Both the position numbers and the translations under genes were made by a program. From positions 1 to 30,166 of IMG/VR virus record IMGVR_UViG_3300010399_000251: 30,166 bases of DNA; one strand, written 5' to 3'. This document shows positions 1-15,282 of the stretch, piece after piece; positions within the stretch are counted from its first letter, which is position 1; each line of letters begins with the position of its first letter. Under the pieces are notes generated by a model, which worked only from the letters and a program-made list of their open reading frames with translations, made no database searches and was not told where the DNA came from. The DNA is from a virus.

Positions 1-98
1 CTTGACGGCCATAGAGCAGCGGCCTTTTTCGTGCCGGGGGGCTTTTCCCACAACATCCACAAATACGTGCCAACAAACTCTTGTTCCCAAGGTATCAT
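1..98 (-). CDS. WEPEF-family micro-protein, member A (partial, cut by the left edge)
   Basis: Thirty-two codons are visible before the window ends, beginning MIPWEQEFVGTYLWMLW. The first residues match the N-terminal signature shared by the other small genes in this cluster: Met, two residues, aromatic, acidic, x, Glu, Phe. Trp14 and Trp17 align with the same positions in the members at 95-289 and 465-635. The ATG at 98 overlaps the stop of the upstream gene (ATGA), and a strong Shine-Dalgarno (GGAGGGG) lies inside that gene's last codons. The function is unknown. The family assignment comes from the shared N-terminus only, because the C-terminus is outside the window. Confidence 0.7.
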   Translation of the reverse strand, partial: MIPWEQEFVGTYLWMLWEKPPGTKKAAALWPS

Positions 99-289
99 AA
101 GCGCCCCTCCTTCTCTGCCCAATCATGAAAATCAATCATTTTCTCGAATGGTATGATGCGCGCAACGGTCGAGCGAATATCTTGGCTCCCCTGTTGTCCT
201 ATACAGCCCAGGCTAAACCCCACACCGTCCGACCGGCTCCATTTGAGCCAAAGCGCTGCCATCACGAATTCCGGCTCCCACACAGTCAT
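95..289 (-). CDS. WEPEF-family micro-protein, member B
   Basis: A 64-residue protein beginning MTVWEPEFVMAALWLKW. It carries the fullest form of the family signature (W4-E5-P6-E7-F8), then a short amphipathic aromatic stretch with W14 and W17, then a more variable polar tail that ends acidic and basic. There is no signal peptide and no convincing membrane segment. The start overlaps the preceding stop codon by four bases (ATGA), so translation is probably coupled. It most resembles member D (465-635), with which it shares WEPEF, an LW/W pair and a G-x-x-F further on. I do not recognise it outside this window. By context it may work with the MoxR-VWA pair encoded in the same operon, but that is inference. 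Confidence 0.75.
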   Translation of the reverse strand: MTVWEPEFVMAALWLKWSRSDGVGFSLGCIGQQGSQDIRSTVARIIPFEKMIDFHDWAEKEGRL

Positions 290-468
290 AATTGCACCAT
301 CTTAACCATGACTAGCCAAAAGTCCCGATCCGACAAAGTCGCCCAATGGCGGTTCAGGCTGTCCGTCCAATCGCCAGACTGGCGTCGCGACGGCAGTACG
401 GCGTCCGCATTCCGCTCCCACATGAACGTCATGTAGGCCGCCAAAAACTCGCTGTCGAAGGGGATCAT
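286..468 (-). CDS. WEPEF-family micro-protein, member C
   Basis: A 60-residue protein beginning MIPFDSEFLAAYMTFMW. It keeps the family pattern in a relaxed form: aromatic F4 and acidic D5 replace Trp-Glu, E7 and F8 are kept, and W17 aligns with members A, B and D. The rest is polar with several Trp residues and ends in a hydrophobic VMVKMVQL stretch. ATGA overlaps join it to the genes on both sides, and an AGGAAC sequence in the preceding gene could act as ribosome-binding site. The function is unknown. It belongs to the sub-group of four consecutive members (A-D) lying downstream of the VWA gene. Confidence 0.75.
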   Translation of the reverse strand: MIPFDSEFLAAYMTFMWERNADAVLPSRRQSGDWTDSLNRHWATLSDRDFWLVMVKMVQL

Positions 469-635
469 GGCTTGTTCCTATAATAATTATTATAAAGCTT
501 AGCTAGCCCGGACGGCGATACATGCCTATCGACCATAGTGCGCGTCATCTTGACACTAGTAAAAGCTTCGCCTTTGGGCTTAACCCAATGGGTCCACAAA
601 AGTGCTGCAAAGAACTCCGGCTCCCAAACAATCAT
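465..635 (-). CDS. WEPEF-family micro-protein, member D
   Basis: A 56-residue protein, short enough to be missed by a 60-codon cutoff, found by translating the gap between its neighbours. It begins MIVWEPEFFAALLWTHW and ends in a Tyr/Asn-rich tail (LYNNYYRNKP). The signature W4-E5-P6-E7-F8 and the W14/W17 pair match member B closely. Its ATG at 635 overlaps the TGA of the VWA gene, and its own TGA at 465-467 overlaps the ATG of member C, so all three are probably translated as a coupled set. The function is unknown. The exact overlaps at both ends and the shared N-terminus argue strongly that it is real. Confidence 0.75.
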   Translation of the reverse strand: MIVWEPEFFAALLWTHWVKPKGEAFTSVKMTRTMVDRHVSPSGLAKLYNNYYRNKP

Positions 636-1828
636 CGCCGACCCCGCTTGATAATCGCGTCCAAGCCCACGCTGCGCATCTTAAATTGGTCCCGAAACGC
701 GTCCACGTTGGCCTGGTACAAAACCCAAGTCCATACACTCGGCCGTTTCGGCGCGACCAACTCCGCCTGTCCGTCCGTCAGAACCAACACAGCGTCGGGA
801 TAGCGCGCCTTGCGCAAGCAGTATTCCTCGACGGGCGTGAAGTTTGTCCCGCCCCCCCGCATTGGCATCACCGTGTTGGTGCGAAAATCCGCCCAAGTCT
901 TCGTCTCGGTGTTGAAAAGAATAACTTCTAGGTCATAGGTCGCGCCCGAGTTGCGCACCAAGTTGCACAAGCGATCAACGCCCGACTCATCCATACTTCC
1001 CGATACGTCGATGGCGATAAGCGCCGACTTGCGCGGCTGAGGGGTCCGGCGCGGAAGGACTGCCTCCCGCCCGGCAAACATATCGACTCCCGCATAGCGC
1101 TTGGGGATGTTGCGCCAGGTTTCCTTCACTTTCGAGGAATCCAGGGTTTCCGCCATGAAGCGCTCCCATCGTGCTTGCTCATCCGAGACTAGAACCTGCG
1201 CCGGCTTGTCGCTTTTGGCGGTTCCCCATTCCTTCGTGACTTCGATTTTGTTGCCACTGTCTGTGCCCGGCGCATCCGCTCGCGCCAATTGCGCCTCAGC
1301 GTCGCCTGTGGCGTCCCCAGCGCTTCCCGCGGGAGGAGGTGGGTACTTGGCCGCAATTTCCCGCATCAGCGTTTCTACGGCATCCTGGCGCGTATCGCGG
1401 CCAAGCATGGAGGGTCCGTCAACGCCTTTCGGGACCCGCGCATAGCCCAAGCTGTAGAGCAAGTCGTTGATTTGGCAATCCCGCGCGTAGTTGTGCAAGA
1501 GCGCCCCGTCCCACCCGTTATACCAGTCTTTCGGATTTTCCTTGAAGTCCTGTCCCGCCATCAAATCTCCCGCCAGGAGATGCTGCGTCTCATGCACCAT
1601 GATGGTCTTGACTTGGGCAGGCGAAAGGCCCTTCAAGTGCAGCGGGTTAAACCCCAGGATGATGCCAGGCCTGCCCTTGCGCGCCATGACGGCCATAGGC
1701 GCGTCGAGCGTGATTGGCGCAACGGCGGTCACCTCCTGTAGGATAAGATCGGCATTAACGCGCATATCGACGCTAGTGGCGTGGTAAGCAATTTCTTTGA
1801 TGAGGGAAAGGATGTCACTTGTTTTCAT
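632..1828 (-). CDS. VWA-domain protein with HExxH metallopeptidase-like N-terminal domain (DUF2201-like)
   Basis: A 398-residue protein with two recognisable halves. The N-terminal half has a zincin-like motif, VHETQH (H79, E80, H83), followed by ARDCQINDLL (115-124), which resembles the conserved D-x-x-I-N element of the DUF2201 N-terminal putative metallopeptidase domain. A Pro/Gly/Ala linker (about 163-192) follows. The C-terminal half is VWA-like, with a full MIDAS set: D274-x-S276-x-S278 in AIDVSGSMD, T329 in GGGTNF, and D352 in LVLTDGQ. VWA proteins of this type usually partner MoxR AAA+ ATPases, and such an ATPase lies in the same operon (2980-3945), separated by six micro-protein genes. 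The likely role is adaptor or effector of a MoxR-driven remodelling machine. Its substrate is unknown. ATGA overlaps join it to both neighbours. Confidence 0.88.
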   Translation of the reverse strand: MKTSDILSLIKEIAYHATSVDMRVNADLILQEVTAVAPITLDAPMAVMARKGRPGIILGFNPLHLKGLSPAQVKTIMVHETQHLLAGDLMAGQDFKENPKDWYNGWDGALLHNYARDCQINDLLYSLGYARVPKGVDGPSMLGRDTRQDAVETLMREIAAKYPPPPAGSAGDATGDAEAQLARADAPGTDSGNKIEVTKEWGTAKSDKPAQVLVSDEQARWERFMAETLDSSKVKETWRNIPKRYAGVDMFAGREAVLPRRTPQPRKSALIAIDVSGSMDESGVDRLCNLVRNSGATYDLEVILFNTETKTWADFRTNTVMPMRGGGTNFTPVEEYCLRKARYPDAVLVLTDGQAELVAPKRPSVWTWVLYQANVDAFRDQFKMRSVGLDAIIKRGRR

Positions 1829-2001
1829 GTTTGCTCCAACAGGGATAAGGTGTCGTACAGGTCCATAAACTCATTCTCTTGTTTCGGGCTAAGAAAGCGG
1901 CGAGCTGTGTGGCCGCAAAAACCAACCCAATAGAAATTGAGATCATCTTGGAGATACGCCAGGGCGACCCAAAACTCGACTTCATAGACAACTGGCGTCA
2001 T
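1825..2001 (-). CDS. WEPEF-family micro-protein, member E
   Basis: A 58-residue protein beginning MTPVVYEVEFWVALAYL. Aromatic Y6, E7, E9 and F10 follow the family signature with one or two extra N-terminal residues. The E-F-W-[VI]-A run and a nearby D-D pair match member J (2807-2980), so E and J form a sub-group. I chose the ATG at 2001 because AGAAGG sits eight bases upstream and the resulting start matches the family. A GTG at 2010 would add three residues and overlap the preceding stop. The gene ends in an ATGA overlap with the VWA gene, which implies coupling. The function is unknown. Confidence 0.72.
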   Translation of the reverse strand: MTPVVYEVEFWVALAYLQDDLNFYWVGFCGHTARRFLSPKQENEFMDLYDTLSLLEQT

Positions 2002-2006
2002 GGCTT

Positions 2007-2180
2007 TCACCTTCTCTCAAGCTTCCGGTACGCCGACTGGTACGTGAAATGGTCCGAGTCGAGTTCCCCAAAATACTGCCTCCCACGCCTCTGCCACCAA
2101 CCATAAAGCGGTTCGATCCGCTCGGGTCGCTTAGCTAGCATCCACAAAACCGCGCTGAATTCTCCGTCGATTGGCGTCAT
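2007..2180 (-). CDS. WEPEF-family micro-protein, member F
   Basis: A 57-residue protein beginning MTPIDGEFSAVLWMLAK. The signature is present as I4-D5-G6-E7-F8 with W13, closest to the distal member at 5962-6117, which also begins with P-I-D and has W13. The rest is basic and aromatic. A longer open frame runs upstream to 2414, but its extra 78 residues overlap member G in another frame and look like a shadow. The internal ATG at 2180 forms an exact ATGA overlap with member G's stop, as elsewhere in this array, so the short form is preferred. The function is unknown. Confidence 0.7.
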   Translation of the reverse strand: MTPIDGEFSAVLWMLAKRPERIEPLYGWWQRRGRQYFGELDSDHFTYQSAYRKLERR

Positions 2181-2356
2181 CGGGGGAACGCCAAACCCAT
2201 GGCAGTCCTGTAAACACCTAAGCAGTTGTCGTATGTTGCACTGCCAGTTAGGCGCGCCAGTAGCCCAGTTGGCACGAACCTTGCCATCTCGTTCCATTGG
2301 GCGCGAGGAACCGCCATTGCCAAGGCAAACAAAAACTCTGCGTCGTAAACAATCAT
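2177..2356 (-). CDS. WEPEF-family micro-protein, member G
   Basis: A 59-residue protein beginning MIVYDAEFLFALAMAVP, too short for a 60-codon cutoff. The family signature appears as Y4-D5-A6-E7-F8. A second shared element, P-R-A-Q-W (17-21), matches S-P-A-Q-W in member H and S-S-A-E-W in member I, which makes G, H and I a sub-group. A strong Shine-Dalgarno (AGGAGGA) lies inside the end of member H, and the ATG at 2356 overlaps H's TGA. The gene ends in an ATGA overlap with member F. It lies antisense to and out of frame with other open frames here, but the overlaps and homology favour this reading. Confidence 0.72.
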   Translation of the reverse strand: MIVYDAEFLFALAMAVPRAQWNEMARFVPTGLLARLTGSATYDNCLGVYRTAMGLAFPR

Positions 2357-2559
2357 CGGGCCTTCCTCCTGAACGGCTTGTCCAAGCCATCCATACGCAA
2401 AATGTTGCCGTCAATCTCCGACCAGTTGTAGCGAAGTTTGGCCGCCGCTGCCATCAGATCAGGACGGGCCTGGAAGATAGGCGCCACGGCACTCCACTGA
2501 GCCGGCGATGCGTAGTAGTCGAAAATTGCGATGATTTCTGGCTCGATTGGTACTATCAT
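2353..2559 (-). CDS. WEPEF-family micro-protein, member H
   Basis: A 68-residue protein beginning MIVPIEPEIIAIFDYYA. It is the most diverged array member at the signature: there is no aromatic at the usual position, and the core reads E6-P7-E8-I9, so Ile replaces Phe. It keeps the S-P-A-Q-W element (18-22) of the G/H/I sub-group and has a longer, more helical C-terminus (FQARPDLMAAAAKL). It starts three bases after member I's stop, with a G-rich run (GGGGGG) as ribosome-binding site, and ends in an ATGA overlap with member G. The function is unknown. Confidence 0.7.
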   Translation of the reverse strand: MIVPIEPEIIAIFDYYASPAQWSAVAPIFQARPDLMAAAAKLRYNWSEIDGNILRMDGLDKPFRRKAR

Positions 2560-2562
2560 GTG

Positions 2563-2757
2563 TTACATACCCCCCCGAAGCGTCAATGGTTGCGTCATGC
2601 CGTGATACGTCACAAAAATGCGAGTGTACGCTTGCCTCGTTCGTGTCGGGAGTGCGATCCGGATGCTTCTGCGACCTCCTTCGCGGAATACTTCCCATTC
2701 CGCTGAAGATGCGCAAAGATAGATCACCAGCAAAAACTCTTTCTCCCAGACAACCAT
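2563..2757 (-). CDS. WEPEF-family micro-protein, member I (first gene after the internal terminator)
   Basis: A 64-residue protein beginning MVVWEKEFLLVIYLCAS, with signature W4-E5-K6-E7-F8 and the S-S-A-E-W element (17-21) shared with members G and H. The C-terminal half is rich in Arg and Thr. GGAGGA lies seven bases before the ATG at 2757. Unlike its neighbours it is not overlapped upstream. A hairpin followed by a T-run separates it from member J, so transcription of I, H, G, F, E, the VWA gene and D-A may depend on readthrough or on a promoter I could not identify. The function is unknown. Confidence 0.74.
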   Translation of the reverse strand: MVVWEKEFLLVIYLCASSAEWEVFREGGRRSIRIALPTRTRQAYTRIFVTYHGMTQPLTLRGGM

Positions 2758-2769
2758 GACTTCCTCCTA

Positions 2770-2801
2770 GAAAAAAGAAAGGCGGGCTCACAACCCGCCT
2801 A
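2770..2801 (-). terminator. Rho-independent terminator inside the micro-protein array
   Basis: Read on the minus strand, AGGCGGGTT-GTG-AGCCCGCCT forms a GC-rich stem of about nine pairs (one G-T wobble), followed directly by TTTCTTTTTT. It lies a few bases after the stop of member J (2807-2980). It would end or attenuate transcription coming from the MoxR gene, separating an upstream part (MoxR, J) from a downstream part (I to A, with the VWA gene). Confidence 0.75.
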
Positions 2802-2806
2802 GTCTA

Positions 2807-2980
2807 TTAGTAGAGCGACTGGCGCATTGCACGCCACATCCGCTCTACCCCGTTGTGCGTCGGCCATCCGGGGAGCCCCTCAGCCTGACGCGAGTAGTGA
2901 TAGCCGCGACGTCGCCCGTTGATTATGTCGTCAAGCTCCCAGTACGCAATCCAGAACTCCGGTTCCCACACGACCGGCAT
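2807..2980 (-). CDS. WEPEF-family micro-protein, member J, directly after the MoxR gene
   Basis: A 57-residue protein below the usual length cutoff, beginning MPVVWEPEFWIAYWELDD. It has the complete W5-E6-P7-E8-F9 signature, and its E-F-W-I-A run matches E-F-W-V-A in member E. The C-terminal half is basic and ends ERMWRAMRQSLY. The MoxR stop and this start share bases (TGATG), so the two are probably made in a fixed ratio by translational coupling. A terminator follows its stop. This tight link to the ATPase is the best contextual evidence that the micro-proteins belong to the MoxR-VWA system. The molecular function is unknown. Confidence 0.75.
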   Translation of the reverse strand: MPVVWEPEFWIAYWELDDIINGRRRGYHYSRQAEGLPGWPTHNGVERMWRAMRQSLY

Positions 2981-3945
2981 CACGTGATGGGCCCGTGCTT
3001 GGCCTCATACTCCGCGCGGAGCTTGCGCAATTCGGCCATCTTGTCCCACACCATCTCTGGAGTGATATTGGCGGCTTTCATTGCCTCTGCCAAGTCCTCG
3101 GTAGCTTGCGCCAAACTCGGGTCATTCAGCGCCTTCTGGAACTTCTCCTCCATCCAGATTGGCGGCGGTCCCGCCGACTCCGCCTTCTCGATTCCCGCGG
3201 CGCTCACCTTGAGATTACCCAGCATCTCGCGCAAGCGAGCCACCGGCACCTGGGGGTCGTTGAACGCCCGTTCGAGCGGCATGCCGGCAGCGAACGCCAT
3301 TGCAGCGTACACCAAGCGGCGCGGCGGGACGTACACGTTCTTGACGTGCTCCGTGTACCAAGACTCGAACGCCGCCTCGGCGGGGCCTTCACCCAACACC
3401 TTGCGCATTGGGACCTGGGGATACTCTGGCACCACGTCAATGAACGCATGGAAGCGGTCAATCAACGCGTCGTCCAATTGCTGGACGTCATACTGGCCTT
3501 GGCCAGGCGGGTTGATACCCGTATGGATGGCCTTGAGCTTGGGAAGCGGTTTGCCGTTGATTGTCTTGAATTGGACAATCTCGAAAATCATGTTGAGCGT
3601 GCGCGGTGATGCGCGATTCAGCTCATCCATGAAGATGACTTCCGCTTCGAACAACTCGGGCACGCTGAAGAATTCCAGGACGCCCTTTTCTTTGTTCGGG
3701 ATTGGAATCCCGCCAAAGTCGATCTCCGGGTCCATCAGCGGGGCGCTCTTGTACCACAACTTGAGCCCCGCTTGCTTGCAAGCGTCTTGGATGGCGCTAG
3801 TCTTGCCCACCCCATGCTTGCCGACAAGCATGACGTTGTGGCCAAGCTTGGTATAGGTGATAAGGTCCTGAACCAGCAAATCGTAAGCTTTGTACTTCGT
3901 ACCCGCCGATTGCACTGTCTTCTCTGTTTTCTTTGCCTTAGCCAT
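2980..3945 (-). CDS. MoxR-family AAA+ ATPase
   Basis: A 321-residue AAA+ protein. Walker A is G42-K-H-G-V-G-K48-T49. Walker B is IFMDELNRA (D107, E108), with the E-L-N-R-A form typical of MoxR ATPases. A sensor-1 Asn lies in TGINPP (N145), and an arginine-finger region in LDDALIDRF (R164). A helical lid follows, to about residue 245. MoxR ATPases act as chaperone-like remodelling enzymes with VWA partners, and one is encoded downstream (632-1828). The C-terminal tail (262-310) is odd: it is a gapless homologue of the small protein encoded just upstream (3938-4174). AGGAGG precedes the ATG, and the start overlaps the upstream gene by eight bases. Confidence 0.92.
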   Translation of the reverse strand: MAKAKKTEKTVQSAGTKYKAYDLLVQDLITYTKLGHNVMLVGKHGVGKTSAIQDACKQAGLKLWYKSAPLMDPEIDFGGIPIPNKEKGVLEFFSVPELFEAEVIFMDELNRASPRTLNMIFEIVQFKTINGKPLPKLKAIHTGINPPGQGQYDVQQLDDALIDRFHAFIDVVPEYPQVPMRKVLGEGPAEAAFESWYTEHVKNVYVPPRRLVYAAMAFAAGMPLERAFNDPQVPVARLREMLGNLKVSAAGIEKAESAGPPPIWMEEKFQKALNDPSLAQATEDLAEAMKAANITPEMVWDKMAELRKLRAEYEAKHGPIT

Positions 3946-4174
3946 TGTTGGCCTCCTTTTTTAGGGCGCGTTGCCGCGCCATTTCTTTCCAAACCGTAGC
4001 AAAACTAAGCCCAGCAGCCTCTAGCAGCCGTTCTAATTCAGCCGTCTTCGCCGCCATAGCCGGATCTTGCTGCGCGGCTAGAAACTGCGGTTCGTTCCAG
4101 GTTGGCGTTTCTTTTTGAGCCTCTTGTGCGAGCCAATCCTCTGCACTCATGGCTTCGATCTCGTTAGCTGTCAA
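3938..4174 (-). CDS. Small protein homologous to the C-terminal tail of the adjacent MoxR ATPase
   Basis: A 78-residue helical protein. Residues 24-72 align without gaps to MoxR residues 262-310, with about 18 identities in 49. They share P-x-W-x-E-x-x-F at the start, D-P, A-A, V-W-x-x-M-A and R-x-L at the end. It looks like a free-standing copy of the ATPase tail and may form mixed assemblies with it or compete for the same partner. The sequence W-N-E-P-Q-F-L-A-A also echoes the micro-protein signature. I chose the TTG at 4174 because it overlaps the upstream stop (TTGA) and has a GAGGTG ribosome-binding site. An ATG at 4150 is a reasonable alternative that keeps the homologous domain. Confidence 0.8.
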   Translation of the reverse strand: MTANEIEAMSAEDWLAQEAQKETPTWNEPQFLAAQQDPAMAAKTAELERLLEAAGLSFATVWKEMARQRALKKEANNG

Positions 4175-4608
4175 TTCAGCACCTCACCTTTCTTCGATGC
4201 ACCCAAGGAAAGCTTAACGACATCGTTGCCGGCGGGGTCATTATGTTCACGCACACGGCCCTTAATCTCATCGACGCACTCATCGCTCAACTCGGTGACT
4301 TTGGCGGCTCCAGCGCGGAATTTTGCCTCAATTTCCGGGTCTGCGAGCTTCTCGCGAAGTGTCGCGATTGTCGCGGTCACGCCTTCGCAAGCATCTTCCC
4401 CTTCCATCCAATGCGCCAGGAGGTCTGCTGCCAATTCCTCGATGGCGTGCTCCGGCATCATGACCATAACACGAATCGCCATGGCCTGGACTTCAGGGTT
4501 GTCAAGGATTGCCAAGATGACGCCTGGGGTCCCGCGCACTGCGTCACCTTCAGGCAAGTTGTTGTGGACTAAGAAATGGGCTACAAGCCCAAGCTGTGCA
4601 GTTTGCAT
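4171..4608 (-). CDS. Hypothetical alpha-helical protein upstream of the MoxR module
   Basis: A 145-residue protein, mostly predicted helical and acidic, with no signal peptide or clear membrane segment. The middle is hydrophobic-helical (VQAMAIRVMVMMPEHAIEEL), followed by a charged helical region. I recognise no family. A CGGAG ribosome-binding site lies just before the ATG. The gene ends in a TTGA overlap with the MoxR-tail homologue, so it belongs to the same coupled operon. A structural role in the ATPase complex, or a substrate role, would be speculation. Confidence 0.75.
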   Translation of the reverse strand: MQTAQLGLVAHFLVHNNLPEGDAVRGTPGVILAILDNPEVQAMAIRVMVMMPEHAIEELAADLLAHWMEGEDACEGVTATIATLREKLADPEIEAKFRAGAAKVTELSDECVDEIKGRVREHNDPAGNDVVKLSLGASKKGEVLN

Positions 4609-4612
4609 CTAC

Positions 4613-4648
4613 GACTCCGTTGTTAGGGTTTGTTCCCTTCACAGAGTC
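4613..4648 (-). promoter_or_regulatory. Possible hairpin covering the ribosome-binding site of the gene starting at 4608
   Basis: GACTC (4613-4617) pairs with GAGTC (4644-4648), and AGGG (4625-4628) with CCCT (4635-4638), leaving a six-base loop and an internal loop. On the minus-strand mRNA the first arm includes the GGAG of the 4171-4608 gene, so folding would hide its ribosome-binding site. The pairing is short and could be chance. Confidence 0.25.
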
Positions 4649-4656
4649 ATACTGCG

Positions 4657-4845
4657 TTAAGGCGATGGCGGGTTGTATTTTTTAGTGATAGGCGGATTAG
4701 CGCTAGGAAAGGCGCGGTTTATCTCACGTAGCGTCTGGTCTAACCGCACTAGGCTCACCGTCAGGCGAGCCGGGCTCCCCGGCGGGAGCATTGCTTTCAG
4801 CGTTTTCAGGAATTCCAGGTGCCATATCACTTGTTGCTTGCTCAT
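4657..4845 (-). CDS. Doubtful small ORF with a WEPEF-like N-terminus
   Basis: A 62-residue frame beginning MSKQQVIWHLEFLKTL. The V-I-W-H-L-E-F run resembles the micro-protein signature, but it starts inside the gene at 4724-5098 in another frame and overlaps its Pro/Gly-rich end by about 120 bases. No clear ribosome-binding site precedes the ATG. A shorter start at 4794 would remove most of the overlap, and the signature too. It fills the otherwise empty 4657-4723 stretch. I list it as possible only. Confidence 0.3.
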   Translation of the reverse strand: MSKQQVIWHLEFLKTLKAMLPPGSPARLTVSLVRLDQTLREINRAFPSANPPITKKYNPPSP

Positions 4846-5098
4846 ATTCGATTGTCGCGATTTCCATGGAAGCCAGGTTTTTGGCCGCCGCCAGGAATTC
4901 CTGCTTGTTTTTGGGCGGATTTTTCATTAACTCCGAGCTTACCACCTTGACCACGCGGTCAGGCAGGTTGGGCGCGAAAGCTTCATAGCAGCCAAGCAAG
5001 AGCAAGGCGCGAATCTCAAATTGACTGAGGCGGTCAACCTCCGCTTCTAGGCGGTCCTGAACGGCGGTACGGGTGACAGTGCGCTGAAACTTGCTCAT
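4724..5098 (-). CDS. Hypothetical protein with helical N-terminal domain and disordered tail
   Basis: A 124-residue protein. The start at 5098 (MSKFQRTVTRTAV) is chosen because AAGGAG lies seven bases upstream; the open frame extends further but without a good start. The first 80 or so residues look helical and folded, with a Leu-rich core (FEIRALLLLGCYEAF). The last 30 residues are rich in Pro, Gly, Glu and Ser and probably unstructured. A Q-E-F-L-A-A-A stretch mildly echoes the micro-protein motif, which may be chance. No family was recognised. It is second in the minus-strand operon. Confidence 0.72.
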   Translation of the reverse strand: MSKFQRTVTRTAVQDRLEAEVDRLSQFEIRALLLLGCYEAFAPNLPDRVVKVVSSELMKNPPKNKQEFLAAAKNLASMEIATIEYEQATSDMAPGIPENAESNAPAGEPGSPDGEPSAVRPDAT

Positions 5099-5117
5099 GG
5101 GAAACTCCTTGGTAGCC

Positions 5118-5576
5118 TTAGTAGGCGGTAGAGTAGAGACTATACGCACAAACCGTGCTACTAGCAAGTCCCGTTGAAAGCACAGATTGCGCTGTGATGG
5201 CAGACAGATTGGCCGGCGATGTAGCGAGCGTCCCGACTGGCGTCAAGGCGGGAGGGTACTGAGGCACCAGCATGAACATGCCGGGCGCGAGGACGAATTG
5301 GACGGCAGCGGAAGCGGCGACGTTCGGGACGGTGACAAACAAGTAGTTTAATGAATCTGTGTTCACAATCGCCATCGTTGTTGCGCCAGTTGTGGCGTTA
5401 GAAGGGACGGCCAAGGTCCCGGCAGAGGCAAAGGGCGCAGCGCCTGCCGTCATGAGCACAAGCGTGCTAAGCAAGTCCATGGCGGGTTGTTGATTGGGGG
5501 CGGGAAAAGTCTCGACAGGCTGCAATTGATTGGTCGGGACCCAAGCGGCGGATACAGAAAGCTGATTAGTGGCCAT
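5118..5576 (-). CDS. Virion-like beta-rich hypothetical protein, first gene of the minus-strand operon
   Basis: A 152-residue protein rich in Ala, Thr, Val, Ser and Pro with almost no charged residues. That is the composition of phage surface or decoration proteins such as those at 28234-29235. There is no signal peptide and no specific motif. It is the promoter-proximal gene of the operon that carries the MoxR ATPase. An AGGA sequence lies about ten bases before the ATG. A structural protein heading a remodelling operon is unexpected. It could be a substrate of the machine, but that is inference, and a non-virion role is equally open. Confidence 0.7.
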   Translation of the reverse strand: MATNQLSVSAAWVPTNQLQPVETFPAPNQQPAMDLLSTLVLMTAGAAPFASAGTLAVPSNATTGATTMAIVNTDSLNYLFVTVPNVAASAAVQFVLAPGMFMLVPQYPPALTPVGTLATSPANLSAITAQSVLSTGLASSTVCAYSLYSTAY

Positions 5577-5577
5577 G

Positions 5578-5586
5578 TGCTATAAT
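5578..5586 (+). promoter_or_regulatory. Extended -10 promoter for the cyclotransferase-like gene
   Basis: TGCTATAAT is a perfect extended -10 element (TG-n-TATAAT). No convincing -35 lies 16-18 bases upstream, which extended -10 promoters can tolerate. Transcription would start near 5593, about 40 bases before the ATG at 5632. The element overlaps the start of the divergent gene at 5576, so the two transcription units may interfere. Confidence 0.5.
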
Positions 5587-5613
5587 CCTCGGAGAACGCG
5601 TATTCCCCACAAT

Positions 5614-5627
5614 ACCACAAAGGTGGT
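5614..5627 (+). promoter_or_regulatory. Short inverted repeat overlapping the ribosome-binding site at 5632
   Basis: ACCAC-AAAG-GTGGT is a perfect five-base inverted repeat with a four-base centre. Its right arm contains the AGGTGG that serves as ribosome-binding site for the ATG at 5632. It could be an operator or an mRNA hairpin that limits translation. Confidence 0.35.
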
Positions 5628-5631
5628 CCCC

Positions 5632-6000
5632 ATGCCTAACCCCTTGATTCCATTCTTTTTTTACGGAGAATTGAAAGACAAGCGTAAGCCCAACACAGTC
5701 TCGACGCCCGGACTCTTGCGCATGCGGGGCGATGATGCGGCGGCGCGGTTCGGAAACTATGGTGGTCATCGGGTTTGGGGACAAGTCAAGTATGTGCGCA
5801 TGGAAGCTGTTAAAAACCTGGATAGGTTTGAAGCCCCGGAATACAAGCGCGTTGTGGTGCGGCTTTCAAACGGGACTAGGGCCTTCGCTTATGCGGACAT
5901 AAAACCAGCTTGGGAACACGAGGACGTCGTGGAGGACGGCATCTATCGCGGTAAGCGTACGCTAAGAATTGACGCGGTCAAGACCAAGCGCGACCCATAA
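5632..6000 (+). CDS. Gamma-glutamylcyclotransferase-like (AIG2-fold) protein
   Basis: A 122-residue protein. Near the start it has FFFYGELKDK (8-17), the Y-G-x-L substrate-binding loop typical of the gamma-glutamylcyclotransferase/AIG2 fold. Later it has VWGQV (48-52) and NLDRFEAPEYKRVVV (62-76), matching the family's L-D-x-F-E-...-Y-x-R segment; E67 would be the candidate catalytic residue. Family members cleave gamma-glutamyl-amine or gamma-glutamyl-amino-acid bonds, but the phage substrate is unknown. The start at 5632 is chosen for its AGGTGG site and because it puts the motif in its usual place. It has its own extended -10 promoter and stands alone between minus-strand blocks. Its last 39 bases overlap a minus-strand gene tail-to-tail. 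Confidence 0.75.
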   Translation: MPNPLIPFFFYGELKDKRKPNTVSTPGLLRMRGDDAAARFGNYGGHRVWGQVKYVRMEAVKNLDRFEAPEYKRVVVRLSNGTRAFAYADIKPAWEHEDVVEDGIYRGKRTLRIDAVKTKRDP

Positions 6001-6117
6001 GTCATACGCTTCGTCGATGCATTTGTCGACCTGCCGATTGTAGTTCCCATTCCCCAAACCCGTTTCGACGCCTAGCGCCCAAACTGCCAGAATCGTTTCG
6101 ACGTCGATTGGAATCAT
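5962..6117 (-). CDS. Distal WEPEF-family micro-protein (51 residues)
   Basis: A 51-residue protein beginning MIPIDVETILAVWALGV. It matches member F (2007-2180), which begins M-T-P-I-D-G-E-F, in P3-I4-D5-x-E7 and W13. Phe8 of the signature is replaced by Thr. The tail is soluble and acidic. Its ATG at 6117 forms an ATGA overlap with the 6114-6512 gene, the same arrangement as in the main array. The last 39 bases overlap the end of the plus-strand cyclotransferase-like gene. Membership rests on a short N-terminus and the overlap pattern, so it is less certain than the array members. Confidence 0.6.
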   Translation of the reverse strand: MIPIDVETILAVWALGVETGLGNGNYNRQVDKCIDEAYDLWVALGLDRVNS

Positions 6118-6512
6118 TTAAGCACAAACCGAAAGCCGCGCCCGGTTTCACTATAATCGATACCGTCCACAACCTGCTTAGTCGTGACTTCCTGCATCTT
6201 GGTGAAGCGCTGGACGGTTATACCAGTTTCAGTCTCTACAAGATGCGCAATGCCATCTTGTGCCACAATGTATGCAACTTGGCTGCATTCCTTGGCAATG
6301 GCACGCGCAAACTCCGCCGCATAGTCCCCGCGCAAGAGCAAGCTGCGCTCTGGAATCCCGGCCCATCGGCCTTCGATAACCTCGACGGGAATGCCCTTCA
6401 TAGCGGCCATAAGCACAGTGTCGAGAAAGCCATTCTCCGACACATCGGTGCCTTCGATATAGGTGCTAACGATTGCCCATTTACCTTCGAAAAGACGCTC
6501 TTGGTTAATCAT
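6114..6512 (-). CDS. Hypothetical mixed alpha/beta protein
   Basis: A 132-residue protein, starting at 6512 (MINQERLFEGKWAIV) where CGGAG lies about eight bases upstream; the open frame extends further without a better start. Alternating hydrophobic patterns such as WAIVSTYIEG, VEVIEGRW and QVAYIVAQ suggest a folded alpha/beta domain. There is no membrane segment, and I recognise no family or catalytic motif. It lies in a run of very small minus-strand genes, coupled to the micro-protein downstream by an ATGA overlap and overlapping the CxxC mini-protein upstream by eight bases. Confidence 0.72.
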   Translation of the reverse strand: MINQERLFEGKWAIVSTYIEGTDVSENGFLDTVLMAAMKGIPVEVIEGRWAGIPERSLLLRGDYAAEFARAIAKECSQVAYIVAQDGIAHLVETETGITVQRFTKMQEVTTKQVVDGIDYSETGRGFRFVLK

Positions 6513-6627
6513 GACTTGCTCCGTTGTTGTTGATGTTCGATTGTCGCCAGGGTTCAAGCCTTACCTGGCATGGCTGAGGATTCTGGCGTTGACTGCGTTC
6601 GCCGCACTTACGGCATAACACCATCAT
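6505..6627 (-). CDS. CxxC mini-protein (40 residues)
   Basis: A 40-residue frame beginning MMVLCRKCGERSQRQ with a C5-x-x-C8-G knuckle and a third Cys at 20, which looks like half of a zinc ribbon. It lies between 6634-6783 and 6114-6512 and overlaps the latter's start by eight bases, matching the compact style of this block. No clear ribosome-binding site is seen, and the rest of the protein is low-complexity. It could be a small zinc-binding regulator or a chance frame. Confidence 0.4.
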   Translation of the reverse strand: MMVLCRKCGERSQRQNPQPCQVRLEPWRQSNINNNGASHD

Positions 6628-6633
6628 CGTCGT

Positions 6634-6783
6634 CTATTCATACTCGGCTTGGTCACGCTTGGGTTGCTTTTTTTTCGCCTTCCCGTCCCGCCTGTCCCGC
6701 CTTCTTTCCTCCCGCGCATCAGTCTCCTCGGCCGCGCTTGTTCTAATGTGCCGGGGCTTGATGTAGGTGGATGTAGGTTTCAT
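6634..6783 (-). CDS. Small, highly basic protein
   Basis: A 49-residue protein starting at 6783 with MKPTSTYIKPRHIRTS. The second half is almost entirely Arg, Lys, Asp and Glu (for example REERRRDRRDGKAKKKQPK) and probably disordered. It may bind nucleic acid or a membrane surface. The start overlaps the upstream stop (ATGA), which favours it over the ATG at 6822. No family was recognised. Confidence 0.6.
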   Translation of the reverse strand: MKPTSTYIKPRHIRTSAAEETDAREERRRDRRDGKAKKKQPKRDQAEYE

Positions 6784-6920
6784 TGTGCACCAACCTTTGC
6801 TCCAAAAGTGACGCCAATCCATCCGGATTCACCGCGGCGTGCCACATAGCCAACCAGTGCACCAACGGCGAACCAATTGTAGATGGTCCAGTTGTAGGTA
6901 AAGTTGTGGTATGCGCCCAT
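6780..6920 (-). CDS. Small hydrophobic membrane-type protein (46 residues)
   Basis: A 46-residue protein beginning MGAYHNFTYNWTIYNWF. It has an aromatic N-terminus and a hydrophobic core (WFAVGALVGYVARR), then a Gly-rich end. One short membrane segment is likely. It starts in a TGATG overlap with the 6920-7096 gene and ends in an ATGA overlap with the basic protein. It is below normal length cutoffs but precisely placed. A role in lysis (holin-like) or envelope modification is possible; the sequence does not decide it. Confidence 0.6.
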   Translation of the reverse strand: MGAYHNFTYNWTIYNWFAVGALVGYVARRGESGWIGVTFGAKVGAQ

Positions 6921-7096
6921 CATGACCGAATCTCCGTCACAATGTCTTCCTCTGTCACAATGTGGTACGGTTGCGCGCTCGCCGTCCCGGCCTTAAATGA
7001 CAGCCATTCCGTGAGTTGGATGTATGCGCCCGTGTAGTACACAAACCCACCTACACATACATTGAGGCCGATTGCTGAAACGACTAAACCTAACAT
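6920..7096 (-). CDS. Small membrane protein with N-terminal TM segment (58 residues)
   Basis: A 58-residue protein starting at 7096 with MLGLVVSAIGLNVCVGGF, giving one N-terminal hydrophobic segment (2-22), followed by a soluble acidic C-terminus. GGGAG lies seven bases before the ATG, so this start is preferred over 7138. The topology is that of a signal-anchored small protein. It lies with two other membrane micro-proteins, which suggests an envelope-targeted cassette. The specific function is unknown. Confidence 0.65.
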   Translation of the reverse strand: MLGLVVSAIGLNVCVGGFVYYTGAYIQLTEWLSFKAGTASAQPYHIVTEEDIVTEIRS

Positions 7097-7167
7097 GTTC
7101 GCTCCCGCGCCGTCAGGCGCACAGTGTCCTGTCTCCAATTAATCATACACGCGCTCTGGCGCGTTGG

Positions 7168-7308
7168 TTAGAAATCGTCTATGTCATCGTTGCCGTATCG
7201 TGCAATGAAGGCCGCGTCCCGCTGCGCTTGCTCTGCAGCTTCTTGCGCCAGAACGTTTTGCCAGTAAATGACACAGCCGACCAGAAAGATTGCGACGCTG
7301 ATGCTCAT
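7168..7308 (-). CDS. Small membrane-anchored protein (46 residues), first of the second minus-strand block
   Basis: A 46-residue protein beginning MSISVAIFLVGCVIYWQNV, a short hydrophobic anchor (3-15), followed by an Ala/Gln/Glu-rich helix and an acidic tail (NDDIDDF). The layout resembles small inner-membrane spanin-type or accessory lysis proteins, but no motif confirms that. No ribosome-binding site is obvious. A TATGAT sequence on the minus strand (7315-7320) lies seven bases before the ATG, so if it is a promoter the mRNA would be nearly leaderless. Confidence 0.5.
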   Translation of the reverse strand: MSISVAIFLVGCVIYWQNVLAQEAAEQAQRDAAFIARYGNDDIDDF

Positions 7309-7355
7309 ACTTAAATCATACCCGCCAGTTGAAACCTTGGCTACAAAATCGTCAC

Positions 7356-7385
7356 TTGAAATGGAATGCCGTGACCTGCTACAGA
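7356..7385 (+). promoter_or_regulatory. Possible promoter before the packaging/virion operon
   Basis: TTGAAA (7356-7361) and TACAGA (7380-7385) are separated by 18 bases. The -35 matches five of six consensus positions but the -10 is weak. It is placed about 40 bases before the first gene of the long plus-strand operon. Confidence 0.3.
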
Positions 7386-7423
7386 AAGAACGCCTGACAA
7401 CGTGATAGGAAGGTGGCGCTGCA

Positions 7424-7870
7424 ATGAAGAAATCCGAACTCGAACGTCAGCGCCAAGCCTACGCACTCCCCTCTCACAACAACTCCACAACCACCGACGC
7501 CCTCCGCGCACGTGTGTCCTCCGAACTCAACGTCGTGAAGGACGCTTACGACACTGGCTCGCAAGCCCTGACGGAGCTGAATAAGCTAATTAGTCTGAAA
7601 TCTGGGGAACTCGACAGCAAAGAGCTAGCCAACCTAGCCAAGGCCTATGCTGACATCTCGCGCACACTCATCGCGCTACGCGACGAAGGGCGCACAACCA
7701 TCCGAGAGGCGCAGGCTGTTGACCCCCCTGGACCGGAGCGTGAGGTGATGGAGGCTGAACTTACAACCCCTGCAAAAATTTCTTCCCCTCGCGCGACCCC
7801 CCTCGCAATTGGTCAATACTTACAAGGACTTAACCCGGCCCCGGCCGAGAAAGATGACGAAAATGAATAA
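7424..7870 (+). CDS. Possible terminase small subunit or other packaging-associated protein
   Basis: A 148-residue soluble protein. The polar N-terminus (MKKSELERQRQAYALPSHN) is followed by helices (about 25-95) with regular hydrophobic spacing, such as LTELNKLISLKSGEL and LAKAYADISRTLIAL, then a Pro-rich tail. Being helical, of this size and the first gene of the operon ahead of terL, it is a reasonable small-terminase candidate. I see no diagnostic helix-turn-helix, so the assignment is positional inference. GGAAGG precedes the ATG. Confidence 0.6.
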   Translation: MKKSELERQRQAYALPSHNNSTTTDALRARVSSELNVVKDAYDTGSQALTELNKLISLKSGELDSKELANLAKAYADISRTLIALRDEGRTTIREAQAVDPPGPEREVMEAELTTPAKISSPRATPLAIGQYLQGLNPAPAEKDDENE

Positions 7871-8084
7871 GCGCATGATGGAACTTCAGGACTTGGCACG
7901 TACTTTGCAAGCGGAATATGGCTTTTTGGCCCTTCGCCAAGAGATGGACGACGAGCGCCGCAAGGAGATCAAGAAGGAACTTGCGAAGGGCGAGGCTGAG
8001 TTTAACGCACTGCGTCAACAGCCGCAGGAGGTTCCAGCCGAGGAGCCCAAAACGGCCGCCGCTGACGCGGCGGTGCCTCAGTAA
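7863..8084 (+). CDS. Small charged helical protein
   Basis: A roughly 73-residue protein, starting MNKRMMELQDLARTLQ at 7863. A highly charged helix (ALRQEMDDERRKEIKKEL) is likely coiled-coil and is followed by a Pro/Ala-rich end. Alternative starts are 7854, three codons earlier, and 7809. I prefer 7863 because GAGAAAG lies at a suitable distance and the overlap with the previous gene is then eight bases. No family was recognised. It might act with the preceding packaging-type protein. Confidence 0.6.
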   Translation: MNKRMMELQDLARTLQAEYGFLALRQEMDDERRKEIKKELAKGEAEFNALRQQPQEVPAEEPKTAAADAAVPQ

Positions 8085-8521
8085 TGAAATCTCCCGAGTT
8101 CACGATCCGCAAGCCGGTGGCCTCCGACGTAGAGTTCATCATCAAGACGTGGGCTCGGGAGATGCGTCGCGCCTATACGCGCAAGTTCCCGGATCGTCTC
8201 TTTTACAATGAATTCCAGAAAATCATATTATCCCTGACTTCAAAGGCCCAGGCCCGTGTTATATGTCTTTCTGATGATGCTAATTATATTGTCGGTTTTG
8301 TCGTCGGAGAGCACTTTGCTGCTGCGAAAACCCTTGTGGTTCATTTTGCCTATATACGTCCTCCGATGCGTCGTCTGGGCCTGGGCGCTGAGGCATGCGC
8401 TTCTCTGGGCTACCAGCCAGGGGATGAGATAGTCGCCACCTTCTGGCACCCCTACCTGGACCGATTTGAGCGCAAAGACCTGATTCATAACCCCTTTGTC
8501 CTGATGGGAATCAAACAATGA
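8084..8521 (+). CDS. GNAT-like N-acyltransferase fold protein
   Basis: A 145-residue protein. It opens with FTIRKPVASDVEFIIKTW, the usual beta1-alpha1 of a GNAT domain (R-x-x-x-x-x-D). Next comes a beta4-like NYIVGFVVGEH and then FAYIRPPMRRLGLGAEA, which resembles the acyl-CoA-binding R/Q-x-x-G-x-G/A loop. The C-terminus departs from typical acetyltransferases (VATFWHPYLDRF). GNAT-like genes are often found just ahead of phage terminases, with unknown substrate. Part of the gene (about 8215-8345) is visibly more AT-rich than its neighbours. The start and stop codons overlap those of adjacent genes. Confidence 0.65.
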   Translation: MKSPEFTIRKPVASDVEFIIKTWAREMRRAYTRKFPDRLFYNEFQKIILSLTSKAQARVICLSDDANYIVGFVVGEHFAAAKTLVVHFAYIRPPMRRLGLGAEACASLGYQPGDEIVATFWHPYLDRFERKDLIHNPFVLMGIKQ

Positions 8522-8982
8522 AATTCCGCACAACCCACGACCACACCTTATTCCCCAACGTCACTCGCGAGTTCAACGACGCGCAGCCCTGGTTTGCCGG
8601 CTGGACTTGGAGTGTAGGGAAAGGTGGGATAAATCTCATCGATCCCGCCCGGAACCATTTCTTCTTTCCCTGGACGTCTGTTCAGTACATGGTGACTAAT
8701 GACCAAGAAACTAGTGATGGGGCCGAGTGGCCCCAAGCCCCAGGTGTCGGAGTTCGACCGGCTGTTGGAAACGCAAATCCTCAAGCAAGCGGGTCAGTCC
8801 CAAACCTCCCGCTCAGCGTTCCAGCAGGCGAAGCAGCGGCTCCTAGCCCGCCGAGCGACTCTGTTCCCGATGCAGCTGGCGTTCATCATGAGCCCGGCCA
8901 AGAAGAAAGCGGCAGTGTGCACCCGCCGCGCGGGAAAGACGTTCGCGTGCCGCCATCTGGCCGCCGAGGCCGTAGTAAATAG
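8518..8982 (+). CDS. Small protein with a long out-of-frame extension over terL
   Basis: The frame starts in an ATGA overlap with the GNAT-like gene. The first 60 or so residues look like a real small beta domain, with INLIDPARNHFFFPWTSVQYM near its end. In this position phages often carry a protein of about 70 residues ending soon after such a segment. Here no stop occurs until 8982, so the frame runs 284 bases into terL. The extra 90 residues are Pro/Gly/Ser/Arg-rich and look like a shadow of the terL frame. Either the protein really has this tail, or a frameshift (biological or sequencing) hides an earlier stop near 8700. Confidence 0.55.
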   Translation: MKFRTTHDHTLFPNVTREFNDAQPWFAGWTWSVGKGGINLIDPARNHFFFPWTSVQYMVTNDQETSDGAEWPQAPGVGVRPAVGNANPQASGSVPNLPLSVPAGEAAAPSPPSDSVPDAAGVHHEPGQEESGSVHPPRGKDVRVPPSGRRGRSK

Positions 8983-13443: not shown

Positions 13444-14742
13444 ATGAGTTCATTTGTCAACGCGGGGCAACCGCAACTATTCAAATACCTGTACCCGGAT
13501 GACGGCTGGCACATGCTTGTGTCGGCGCAGCGCCCCTTCTTGGCCATGGTGCCAAAGGGCGAGGCGGCGACGGGCGTGACCAGTTCGGGCGGCGCGATGG
13601 GCGCTGGCACCGGTATCGTCCATGTCTGGAACTACTCGAATCCCCAGGCGGCCTCGATGTCCCACGGCTCGGCTTTGGCCCAGCAGGACAGCTTGGTCAC
13701 CGGTCAGCAGATCTTGGTTCAATTGAGCCAAGTGTACGCCTACCTCCGCTTCAACGCGAAGGAATTGAACGCCAGCAAGAACAACATGGCGGCCTACATG
13801 AGCACCAAAAAGCTCAACGTGGACCAGGCCATTGAGCAGATCTCGCTGGAACTCGACCTGGCGCTCCATCGCCCGGGTAACGGCATCCTCGGGACCGTGA
13901 CCAACGTGACCGGCAACGTCATCACCTTGGCGACCACGACTTCGATCCAGCAATGGCAGAAGTTCATGCGCATTGTGTCGGCGTCGACGTACCCGACCAG
14001 CGGCGCGGCTCCTACCCTGGGACCGGGCAATGCCCAAGTCTTGGGTGTGAACCAGTCGTACACCGGTACGGGCTTCACCATCCAGCTGACCGTGGACAAC
14101 GCGGCCGGTTTCGATGCGACGACCAACAAGTACATCATCCGCTTGGGCAACACGTTGGGCTTTAGCTCGACGAACCAAGAAGGCAACATCATCGGTATGG
14201 CCGCCTGGGTTCCCGACAGCCGCGGTACGCCGCAAGCTGGCGAGAACTTCCTCGGCTCCGGTTTGGACCGCACCACGGACCTGTATCGCTTGAGCGGCAT
14301 CCAGATCAGTGGCTCGGGCAAGACCTATCGCGAAGCGATCCAAGAGGCGTGCGCTGTTGTGCACAGCTTGGGGGGCCGCCCCGATGTGTGCTTGATGAAC
14401 CCGATTGACTGGCAGAAGGCCAACATCGAGTTGCAGGGTTACGCGCGTTACGAGGAATTCACGGTTGGCAACATTGCCTTCTCCGCTCTCGTCATCGCAA
14501 GCCCCTCGGGCAACAAGTTGCGCCTTATGTCGGACCCGAACCAAGACGTCGGTTTCGTGCGCGGTATCACGCTTGACAGCTGGAAACTGTGGCACTTGAA
14601 CGACCTGGTTCACACGATCATGGACGACGGCCTGGAACTCCGCAAGGACCCGGGTGCGGACGCGTTCCAGCTCGGTATTCGCTGCTGGCCCCAGTTGGTC
14701 TGCTTCGATCCGCGCGCGAACTTCGTGATCAGCGGTTTCTAA
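13444..14742 (+). CDS. Major capsid protein
   Basis: A 432-residue protein directly after the scaffold. The N-terminal arm (MSSFVNAGQPQLFKYLYPDD) precedes a helical stretch (about 115-150), then a beta-rich insertion (about 155-240) and a C-terminal domain with REAIQEACAVVHSLGG and PDVCLMNPIDWQKANI, typical of coat proteins with the HK97-like fold. Codon use is notably uniform and GC-ending, as expected for a highly expressed gene. The assignment rests on order, size and composition rather than a diagnostic motif. Confidence 0.88.
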   Translation: MSSFVNAGQPQLFKYLYPDDGWHMLVSAQRPFLAMVPKGEAATGVTSSGGAMGAGTGIVHVWNYSNPQAASMSHGSALAQQDSLVTGQQILVQLSQVYAYLRFNAKELNASKNNMAAYMSTKKLNVDQAIEQISLELDLALHRPGNGILGTVTNVTGNVITLATTTSIQQWQKFMRIVSASTYPTSGAAPTLGPGNAQVLGVNQSYTGTGFTIQLTVDNAAGFDATTNKYIIRLGNTLGFSSTNQEGNIIGMAAWVPDSRGTPQAGENFLGSGLDRTTDLYRLSGIQISGSGKTYREAIQEACAVVHSLGGRPDVCLMNPIDWQKANIELQGYARYEEFTVGNIAFSALVIASPSGNKLRLMSDPNQDVGFVRGITLDSWKLWHLNDLVHTIMDDGLELRKDPGADAFQLGIRCWPQLVCFDPRANFVISGF

Positions 14743-14762
14743 TAAACTATACGGGCTCCCCT

Positions 14763-14792
14763 GGGTAAGTCGCTGCGTTGACGCAGTAACCC
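14763..14792 (+). promoter_or_regulatory. Hairpin between major capsid gene and the next gene
   Basis: CTGCG-TTGA-CGCAG (14773-14786) is a perfect stem with a four-base loop, and outer GGGT/ACCC bases add weak support. No T-run follows, so it is not an intrinsic terminator. It may protect the abundant capsid mRNA or act as a processing site. Confidence 0.4.
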
Positions 14793-14811
14793 GTAACCAT
14801 CGAGGTCTTTC

Positions 14812-15282
14812 ATGGCATCACCGTATCGTATTAAAGAGATGGTCAGTTCCAACGTTCCGGCGGATATCCGTATCGCTGGCACGTTCTCGCTGACCACCGG
14901 CGGAGCGCCTGGCGCTCTGGTGCGGCCTTCGGCTGGTTCGCAGGCGGCAGCTGGTCAAGGTAACTTGTTTACCGTGACGCAGTTGGGGTCCTACGGCGGC
15001 TTGACGGCAGCTAACGTGTACCAAGTCACGTTGACGGAAACCTACTGGAAAAGCGTCGCTTGTGACGCCCAGTACCAGTACCCCTTCAGCTTGGCCTTGA
15101 GCACGTCCGGGTTTACCGTGGATTGCTTTGCAACTCCGCTGGACCCGACTACAAACAGCTTCCTGATCTTTTTGACGACGCCTGCTGGGGTTATCACTAG
15201 CTCCCTCAACGCGACGATCACGACCGGTCAGATTGGGTTTGAAGTCATCTGCGTCAATACTACGTCCCCGAATACTCTGTAA
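14812..15282 (+). CDS. Virion protein, possibly capsid decoration
   Basis: A 156-residue protein beginning MASPYRIKEMVSSNVPADIR, then rich in Thr, Ser, Ala, Gly and Val with few charges. This beta-rich composition is typical of decoration or head-associated proteins. It lies between the capsid and connector genes with GAGGTCTTTC as ribosome-binding site. There is no specific motif; a head-fibre or neck role is also possible. Confidence 0.7.
   Translation: MASPYRIKEMVSSNVPADIRIAGTFSLTTGGAPGALVRPSAGSQAAAGQGNLFTVTQLGSYGGLTAANVYQVTLTETYWKSVACDAQYQYPFSLALSTSGFTVDCFATPLDPTTNSFLIFLTTPAGVITSSLNATITTGQIGFEVICVNTTSPNTL

Follow-up and report, generated by a model that had tools for sequence, protein, structure and literature searches.

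What could be the use of a run of very small viral genes whose products begin alike and then diverge, packed around the genes for a MoxR-type AAA+ ATPase and a zincin-VWA protein? The question is raised by the virus record IMGVR_UViG_3300010399_000251, a contig of 30,166 bases (called here, over its whole length, the window) that is perhaps a fragment, and whose edge falls inside the array of small genes. Ten open reading frames (ORFs), designated A to J, occupy the first ~3 kb. As an earlier reading of the letters alone had described them, all are on the minus strand, and the nine complete ones have 56-68 codons, A being cut by the edge. That sequence-only reading was correct in counting ten within this interval, but it overlooked an eleventh, K, which lies ~3 kb from the MoxR/VWA pair, after another gene with which it has a 4-base overlap. 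The members of the array are:

1-98, minus strand: microprotein A, cut by the contig edge; head MIPWEQEF; matched at E 2.2e-4 by a profile built without A
95-289, minus strand: microprotein B, 64 amino acids; head MTVWEPEF
286-468, minus strand: microprotein C, 60 amino acids; head MIPFDSEF
465-635, minus strand: microprotein D, 56 amino acids; head MIVWEPEF; low-confidence helical model
1825-2001, minus strand: microprotein E, 58 amino acids; head MTPVVYEVEF
2007-2180, minus strand: microprotein F, 57 amino acids; head MTPIDGEF
2177-2356, minus strand: microprotein G, 59 amino acids; head MIVYDAEF; four-helix model
2353-2559, minus strand: microprotein H, 68 amino acids; head MIVPIEPEI
2563-2757, minus strand: microprotein I, 64 amino acids; head MVVWEKEF; AGGAGG upstream of the start
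2807-2980, minus strand: microprotein J, 57 amino acids; head MPVVWEPEF; alternative GTG start at 2983
5962-6117, minus strand: microprotein K, 51 amino acids; head MIPIDVET; outside the interval of the sequence-only reading

The analysis confirmed that the array and its shared head are real and exceed what chance would produce. The head can be written as M-x(1-4)-[WYFI]-[ED]-x-E-F or close to it, and the likeness spans residues 1 to ~15. When all ATG, GTG and TTG starts that open at least 25 amino acids were considered, a strict form of the pattern was found at nine of the 1664 starts of the window, all nine in the array, with ~0.16 expected (9.7e-5 per shuffled start); E was missed because of one extra residue. 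With leave-one-out profiles, each of the ten complete members (B to K) outscored all 1000 of its own shuffles. The only invariant positions in a MAFFT alignment of A to J are M1 and E7, with F8 at 90%. When the members, K included, are aligned on the motif, an alignment that is partly circular since the motif is its anchor, the likeness comprises Met, [WYFI] at position 4, an acid at position 5 and Glu at position 7, these last two each in 11 of 11, and Phe at position 8 in 9 of 11; residue 11 is small or hydrophobic, and residues 12 and 15 are mostly hydrophobic. The sub-groups that had been pointed out are also present: W17 in A to D, [PS]xA[QE]W in G to I, and EFW[VI]A in E and J.

As causes of the shared head, the analysis considered tandem copying of recent date, gene conversion and a 5' signal acting at the DNA level, and a DNA run said to be common to several starts, GTNTGGGARCCGGARTTC, does occur three times exactly. 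The use of codons argues against all three causes: among pairs of identical head residues, 89 of 215 share the same codon, no excess over the 93-98 that codon usage predicts (simulation mean 97.8; 95% range 80-121). The synonymous codons of the head have been randomised with the residues kept, which suggests that the motif has been maintained as protein by long selection.

Past approximately residue 15, the motif-anchored alignment holds a single mildly similar column, near residue 20. Leave-one-out profiles of the tails after the motif detected no shared pattern, as 94-935 of 1000 shuffles scored as high; for tails starting ten residues further, the count ranged from 35 for D, the nearest to a signal, to 935 for H. 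The in-frame codon score of the tail ranks first of the six frames for six of ten members (C, D, E, H, J and K), second for B, G and I, and third for F, so that for four tails another frame has a slightly higher score. AlphaFold2 models obtained from alignments of the paralogues are predicted to be all-helical, at low confidence, for both D (predicted local distance difference test, pLDDT, 65; helices at 6-17, 29-38 and 41-53) and G (pLDDT 71; helices at 6-15, 18-27, 30-37 and 42-56), and both models open a helix at residue 6, within the motif. A Foldseek search with the G model gave nothing significant (best E 2.9 in BFVD and 5.0 in PDB), and weak F-box matches (E 5.8-9.3) were disregarded. 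Of the earlier proposal of a conserved head and a variable tail, as in a docking motif with changing payloads, the description stands, with the head conserved at the protein level and no detectable homology among the tails; the interpretation is partly supported overall. Selected diversification of the tails, proposed in the same place, may be the cause of their differences, as may descent from an ancient, divergent family of small proteins.

The larger genes around which the array is built are the following:

632-1828, minus strand: zincin-VWA protein, 398 amino acids; HETQH; metal ion-dependent adhesion site (MIDAS) motifs DVSGS, GGGT and TDG; DUF2201_N/DUF2201; PHROG 1314
2980-3945, minus strand: MoxR-type AAA+ ATPase; GKHGVGKT and VIFMDE; PHROG 1297; PF20030

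Judged from sequence matches, the pair is of the phage MoxR/zincin-VWA type (PHROG 1297 plus PHROG 1314), as both components are recognized. The MoxR protein matches PHROG 1297 (E 1e-19), PF20030 (27 bits, at the cut-off of 27) and AAA_5 (25.5, above 22), and its Walker motifs are present. The VWA protein matches PHROG 1314 (E 3.8e-23) and DUF2201 (30.4 bits, above 26.4), with DUF2201_N at 20.1 bits, under its cut-off of 23.2; its HExxH is intact and its MIDAS complete. The label "HNH endonuclease", carried by PHROG 1314 and by several phage records for the zincin-VWA family, is unsupported by the motifs. The same two-gene core, with HExxH fused to VWA, is found in jumbo phages, according to a survey (PMC7824862), and in Schitoviridae (phrog_1297 / phrog_1314), and the Schitoviridae loci examined are without head-sharing microproteins.

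Ten of the eleven members occupy either the interval from MoxR to the VWA gene or the stretch that immediately follows the latter. Exact ATGA overlaps had been claimed for the array; exact 4-base overlaps were found at seven of the eleven junctions from MoxR to A, including those into and out of the VWA gene, and not at the other four, which measure -1, 3, 5 and 49 bases. A possible twelfth member, and possible only, is the ORF at 4657-4845, MSKQQVIWHLEFL, which reads VIWHLEF, has no acid at position 5 and overlaps the ORF at 4724-5167 by ~120 bases. One further element lies within the array:

2780-2800, minus strand: terminator-like hairpin with a U-run, between J and I

Terminator-like hairpins are not in excess here, with 10 sites in 1-8600 and 9.7 in shuffles. 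The U-run after the hairpin can pair with the ribosome site of I, which might make the region 2745-2830 an attenuator; its folding energy is not unusual (z -1.2).

Relatives of the array and of the phage were sought in several collections. No family was found for A to J in Pfam or PHROGs (best E 0.22 and 0.14, respectively, with one member each). The statement that no such family had been described holds to that extent, though not for the principle, which is already in print for the internal proteins of phage T4 (PMC3012670). Those proteins share with the array a short conserved N-terminal segment on diverse small phage proteins, a likeness of design in which the T4 letters were not compared. 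A tblastn search of INPHARED with three of the eleven members (B, D and G) found nothing (best E 2, 1 and 3). In IMG/VR, three scans for the head pattern matched 12, at least 119 and 28 stretches, respectively; a single scan of GTDB matched 93. Among 268 loci plus the window, two or more head-bearing ORFs of 28-130 amino acids were present only in the window and its own sub-loci (L001-L003); eight other loci carry two head matches, yet without two in that size range. The head profile had no match in 14 phage records (11 matches in the window, the positive control), and when 20 sequences were searched for arrays by head similarity, no large and contiguous cluster other than that of the window emerged. 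As for the phage itself, no close relative was detected with its terminase and capsid (INPHARED and IMG/VR) or its portal (INPHARED); one distant terminase was found in Enterobacter phage KKP_3711, and one IMG/VR stretch matched the terminase. The VWA and MoxR proteins, each used as a single sequence, found no relative in IMG/VR, and an alignment of five VWA proteins led to 15 loci. Within the collections searched, the array appears to be unique to this phage, and records very near the window may be missing from those collections.

Recurrence of such arrays beside MoxR/VWA genes in other phages had been named as a check. None with this head was found, and most MoxR/VWA loci scored have no array of any kind; other arrays with a terminal tag were, however, detected in Thermus phages YS40_Isch and TMA, and an array of paralogues in Acinetobacter phage Presley. 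The Thermus phages belong to the six INPHARED records that contain relatives of the MoxR protein. In both, the gene that follows the ATPase encodes the motifs HEILH and DTSGS, and approximately thirty ORFs flank the pair on both sides (L273, 22469-40957, in YS40_Isch; L274, 16304-35789, in TMA). The YS40_Isch array is made of proteins of which 25 of 30 have 130-249 amino acids, with five BLAST pairs at E<1e-3 among the 30. Common endings in these arrays are EVF, DVF, DLF, EIF and TLF, and many of the proteins bear a tag of the form [ED]x[VIL]F-COOH. In YS40_Isch, Phe is the last residue of 23 of the 30 array proteins versus 12 of 143 others (p 4e-14), five of those 12 being close to the array, and the pattern [DE].?[VILM]F$ occurs in 15/30 versus 1/143. 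Within a 49-kb stretch of TMA, the figures are 25/31 versus 6/33 for Phe ends and 16/31 versus 0/33 for the fuller pattern. Scored over the last four residues in 26 of 30 YS40_Isch and 26 of 31 TMA proteins, short ones being omitted, C-terminal similarity has z values of 24.3 and 23.6; N-terminal values are 1.4 and 0.6. The window shows the reverse, with an N-terminal z of 10.0 and a C-terminal z of 1.2 (from 15 ORFs listed by hand, of which ten belong to the array).

As a control, 61 ORF sets from 53 loci with the head pattern all remained below a z of 4 (highest 3.2 and 3.8); with the ORF caller used for these sets, the values are 21.9 for YS40_Isch and 20.8 for TMA (C-terminal) and 5.7 for Presley (N-terminal). 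Among 22 loci fetched through VWA or MoxR, 21 of which were scored (L028 excepted), only Presley passed (L017 and L027, N-terminal z 6.2 and 6.4). Its array (L017, 225-2693) consists of seven ORFs of 96-132 amino acids upstream of MoxR that have similar N-terminal strands; several share a C-terminal segment like A[KR]xNLLG, and three BLAST pairs at E<0.01 are found among the seven. No shared heads or C-terminal tags were seen in Axy10, Ebordelon, Moorella MTATph1 and phiFa (no z above 2.1). An array stands beside the pair in three of 20 scored phages versus none of the 53 control loci (p 0.018, window and repeats excluded), in a tally of phages made by hand and with control sets required to have eight ORFs and test sets six. 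Altogether, arrays adjoin the pair in at least three phage lineages, that of the window included, and are missing in most, an observation that amounts to support and not to proof. In the uncultured phage LR756511.1 (L269), whose MoxR is the best INPHARED match to that of the window (38.7% over 61%), two proteins that look alike by eye over a stretch (13626-14885 and 17754-18308) flank a MoxR/zincin-VWA pair. No account of microprotein arrays beside phage MoxR/VWA genes, or of C-terminal tags in YS40-type phages, was found in the accessible literature, whose coverage of YS40 was narrow; the YS40 genome paper may comment on the matter.

What, then, might the head be for? The explanation to which we incline, tentatively and at less than an even chance, is that it is a docking tag read by the neighboring MoxR/zincin-VWA machine, and that the tails are exchangeable targets or payloads. 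The tag would comprise residues 1 to ~15, that is, [WYFI]-[ED]-x-E-F and the hydrophobic helix after it, and most simply the metal site of the VWA protein, the MIDAS, would coordinate the invariant Glu7. Each tail might be an adaptor through which its own particular target, from the host or the phage, reaches the machine to be remodelled or cleaved; alternatively, the tail itself might be the client or payload. The MoxR ring and the zincin would then act on the tail itself or on what it holds. The corresponding tag of the Thermus phages would be the C-terminal acidic-x-hydrophobic-Phe. We favor this explanation because the members interleave and overlap with the pair, because the acid at position 5 and Glu7 are invariant, because the head is held as protein and the MIDAS and HExxH are intact, because arrays with a tag surround a pair of this type in the two related Thermus phages, and because the C-terminal stretch of MoxR is repeated in a separate ORF. 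Two systems provide precedents: in CbbQ/CbbO, the VWA protein is the substrate adaptor, and the VWA domain of CbbO binds Rubisco at a carboxylate, D82 or E75 (PMC4660213), and in NorQ/NorD the MIDAS of NorD is needed for activity and not for NorQ binding, D220 and E222 of NorB being its candidate partners (PMC9976466). The D-x-E pair of NorB, as given there, has the acidic-x-Glu spacing seen in 11 of 11 microprotein heads.

Several considerations weigh against docking. Expression, binding and action of the array proteins, the role of Glu7 and the function of the tails are things that we infer, and neighboring phage genes need not act together; K sits at a distance from the pair, behind another gene. 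The Thermus tag, which stands at the C-terminus, has no homology to the window head, and its likeness to E-x-E-F was judged by eye; the limits of the Thermus arrays were chosen after the pattern had been noticed, and the DUF2201 and DUF2201_N matches of the YS40_Isch VWA protein are both under their cut-offs. The ORF caller of the control picks antisense ORFs in the window, whose z values rest on the hand-made list. The Presley array looks, from its sequences, like one of ordinary paralogues; if the two Thermus phages are merged, the tally becomes 2/19 (p 0.067), and in the majority of phages that have the pair no tag array is present. The T4 precedent (PMC3012670) also indicates that proteins of this design can serve another purpose.

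That other purpose deserves consideration. In T4, the internal proteins are a highly diverse set in which only the capsid targeting sequence is conserved (PMC3012670), and P1 DarB is sent to the capsid by an N-terminal signal (PMC9024508); the microprotein head might likewise be a packaging signal, and the tails diverse anti-host proteins that are encapsidated and injected. We consider this quite unlikely. The genomic setting differs from that of T4, as the structural genes are on the other strand and the array is interleaved with MoxR/VWA; no prohead protease was recognized among the proteins scanned, though many of these lack an assignment and the contig may be a fragment; and no clear shared cleavage site was seen, the mildly similar column past residue ~15 being a single one. 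Phages commonly carry small early genes that are unrelated to one another, and the array might encode early host-takeover peptides, with heads that bind one common host protein, tails that make a second contact, and MoxR/VWA neighbors that are incidental. The separate position of K fits such peptides. The interleaving and overlapping with the VWA gene and the tag arrays that surround such a pair in Thermus phages speak against them, and we regard host takeover as unlikely.

A further possibility, which would dispense with docking and with exchange, is that the microproteins are small helical proteins that share one fold and belong to an old family that diverges fast, the head being only the first helix of that fold. 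The all-helical predictions for D and G, with a helix from residue 6, the uniform lengths (51-68 amino acids) and the randomised synonymous codons, expected of an old divergence, are consistent with it. The leave-one-out profiles, however, show no conserved pattern in the tails, the acids at positions 5 and 7, and not just core positions, rank with the best conserved, and the models are of low confidence and differ in helix number, so that we hold a single fold to be a doubtful explanation, albeit one that counts against docking. It is very unlikely, in our estimation, that the peptides are decoys or inhibitors of a host MoxR/VWA-type or other AAA+ defence machine, arrayed as variants against many hosts: bacteria do have diversified MoxR-vWA conflict systems, as described in PMC7159879, but the phage's own MoxR and VWA proteins would meet the peptides too, and nothing found here ties these to a host system.

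A broader proposal can be made, which we regard as doubtful: more than once, some phages may have evolved a programmable MoxR/zincin-VWA machine, with a constant core for remodelling or proteolysis, that many interchangeable small proteins enter via a short terminal acidic-aromatic tag, the arrays being a library of adaptors or clients. The tag would be N-terminal [ED]-x-E-F in the window and C-terminal [ED]-x-[VIL]-F-COOH in YS40-type phages. The two settings are alike in that divergent small proteins with a short terminal tag, often acidic-x-hydrophobic-Phe in the Thermus phages, flank the pair; YS40_Isch and TMA differ in the end that carries the tag, in having mostly larger proteins and in the absence of detected homology to the window array. 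To our knowledge, no client has been identified for a phage-encoded MoxR/zincin-VWA pair. Two lineages in which the pair is ringed by diverse small proteins that share one terminal tag offer a direct and cheap test of tag binding. If the tag does bind the machine, phages would have their own version of adaptor-based proteolysis, its specificities stored as a library in the genome, and scans for terminal tags would reveal more cases. The jumbo-phage survey suggests for such a pair a role in virion assembly and in peptidolytic processing (PMC7824862), in which case the tails would be assembly factors and not anti-host proteins.

Short head-like matches elsewhere were tried and set aside: WNEPQF/WMEEKF in MoxR and in the 78-amino-acid ORF listed below, and IPWETEL in a Schitoviridae VWA protein, are matches to which the head profile is blind, and such matches, including one in a SprT-like protein, were not above chance where tested. 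The SprT-like zincin, at 29606-30148, rests on a Pfam match under cut-off and holds an internal WEPDF (P 0.19, not above chance).

A last comparison is with the MoxR-vWA ternary conflict systems, which have effector-associated domains and FxSxx-COOH peptides. According to their description (PMC7159879), they share with the window the MoxR-vWA core, diversified partners and a duplicated coupling domain, and they also have a zincin with small, fast-diverging proteins that share a terminal motif. They differ in being cellular, in having large effectors, in encoding the zincin as a separate gene and in the C-terminal position of the motif (PMC7159879). No VMAP-type effector domain is fused to the vWA domain in the window, the 398-amino-acid protein containing only DUF2201_N and DUF2201, and no third core component (VMAP, iSTAND, FtsH or beta-propeller) was found among the operon genes scanned, on a contig that ends inside the array. 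The duplicated element is the following:

3938-4174, minus strand: ORF of 78 amino acids with a TTG start; matches 57 residues at the C-terminal end of MoxR (35% identity, E 2e-8, in a single comparison)

This separate copy of the C-terminal stretch of MoxR resembles the twice-present coupling domains proposed for the conflict systems (PMC7159879).

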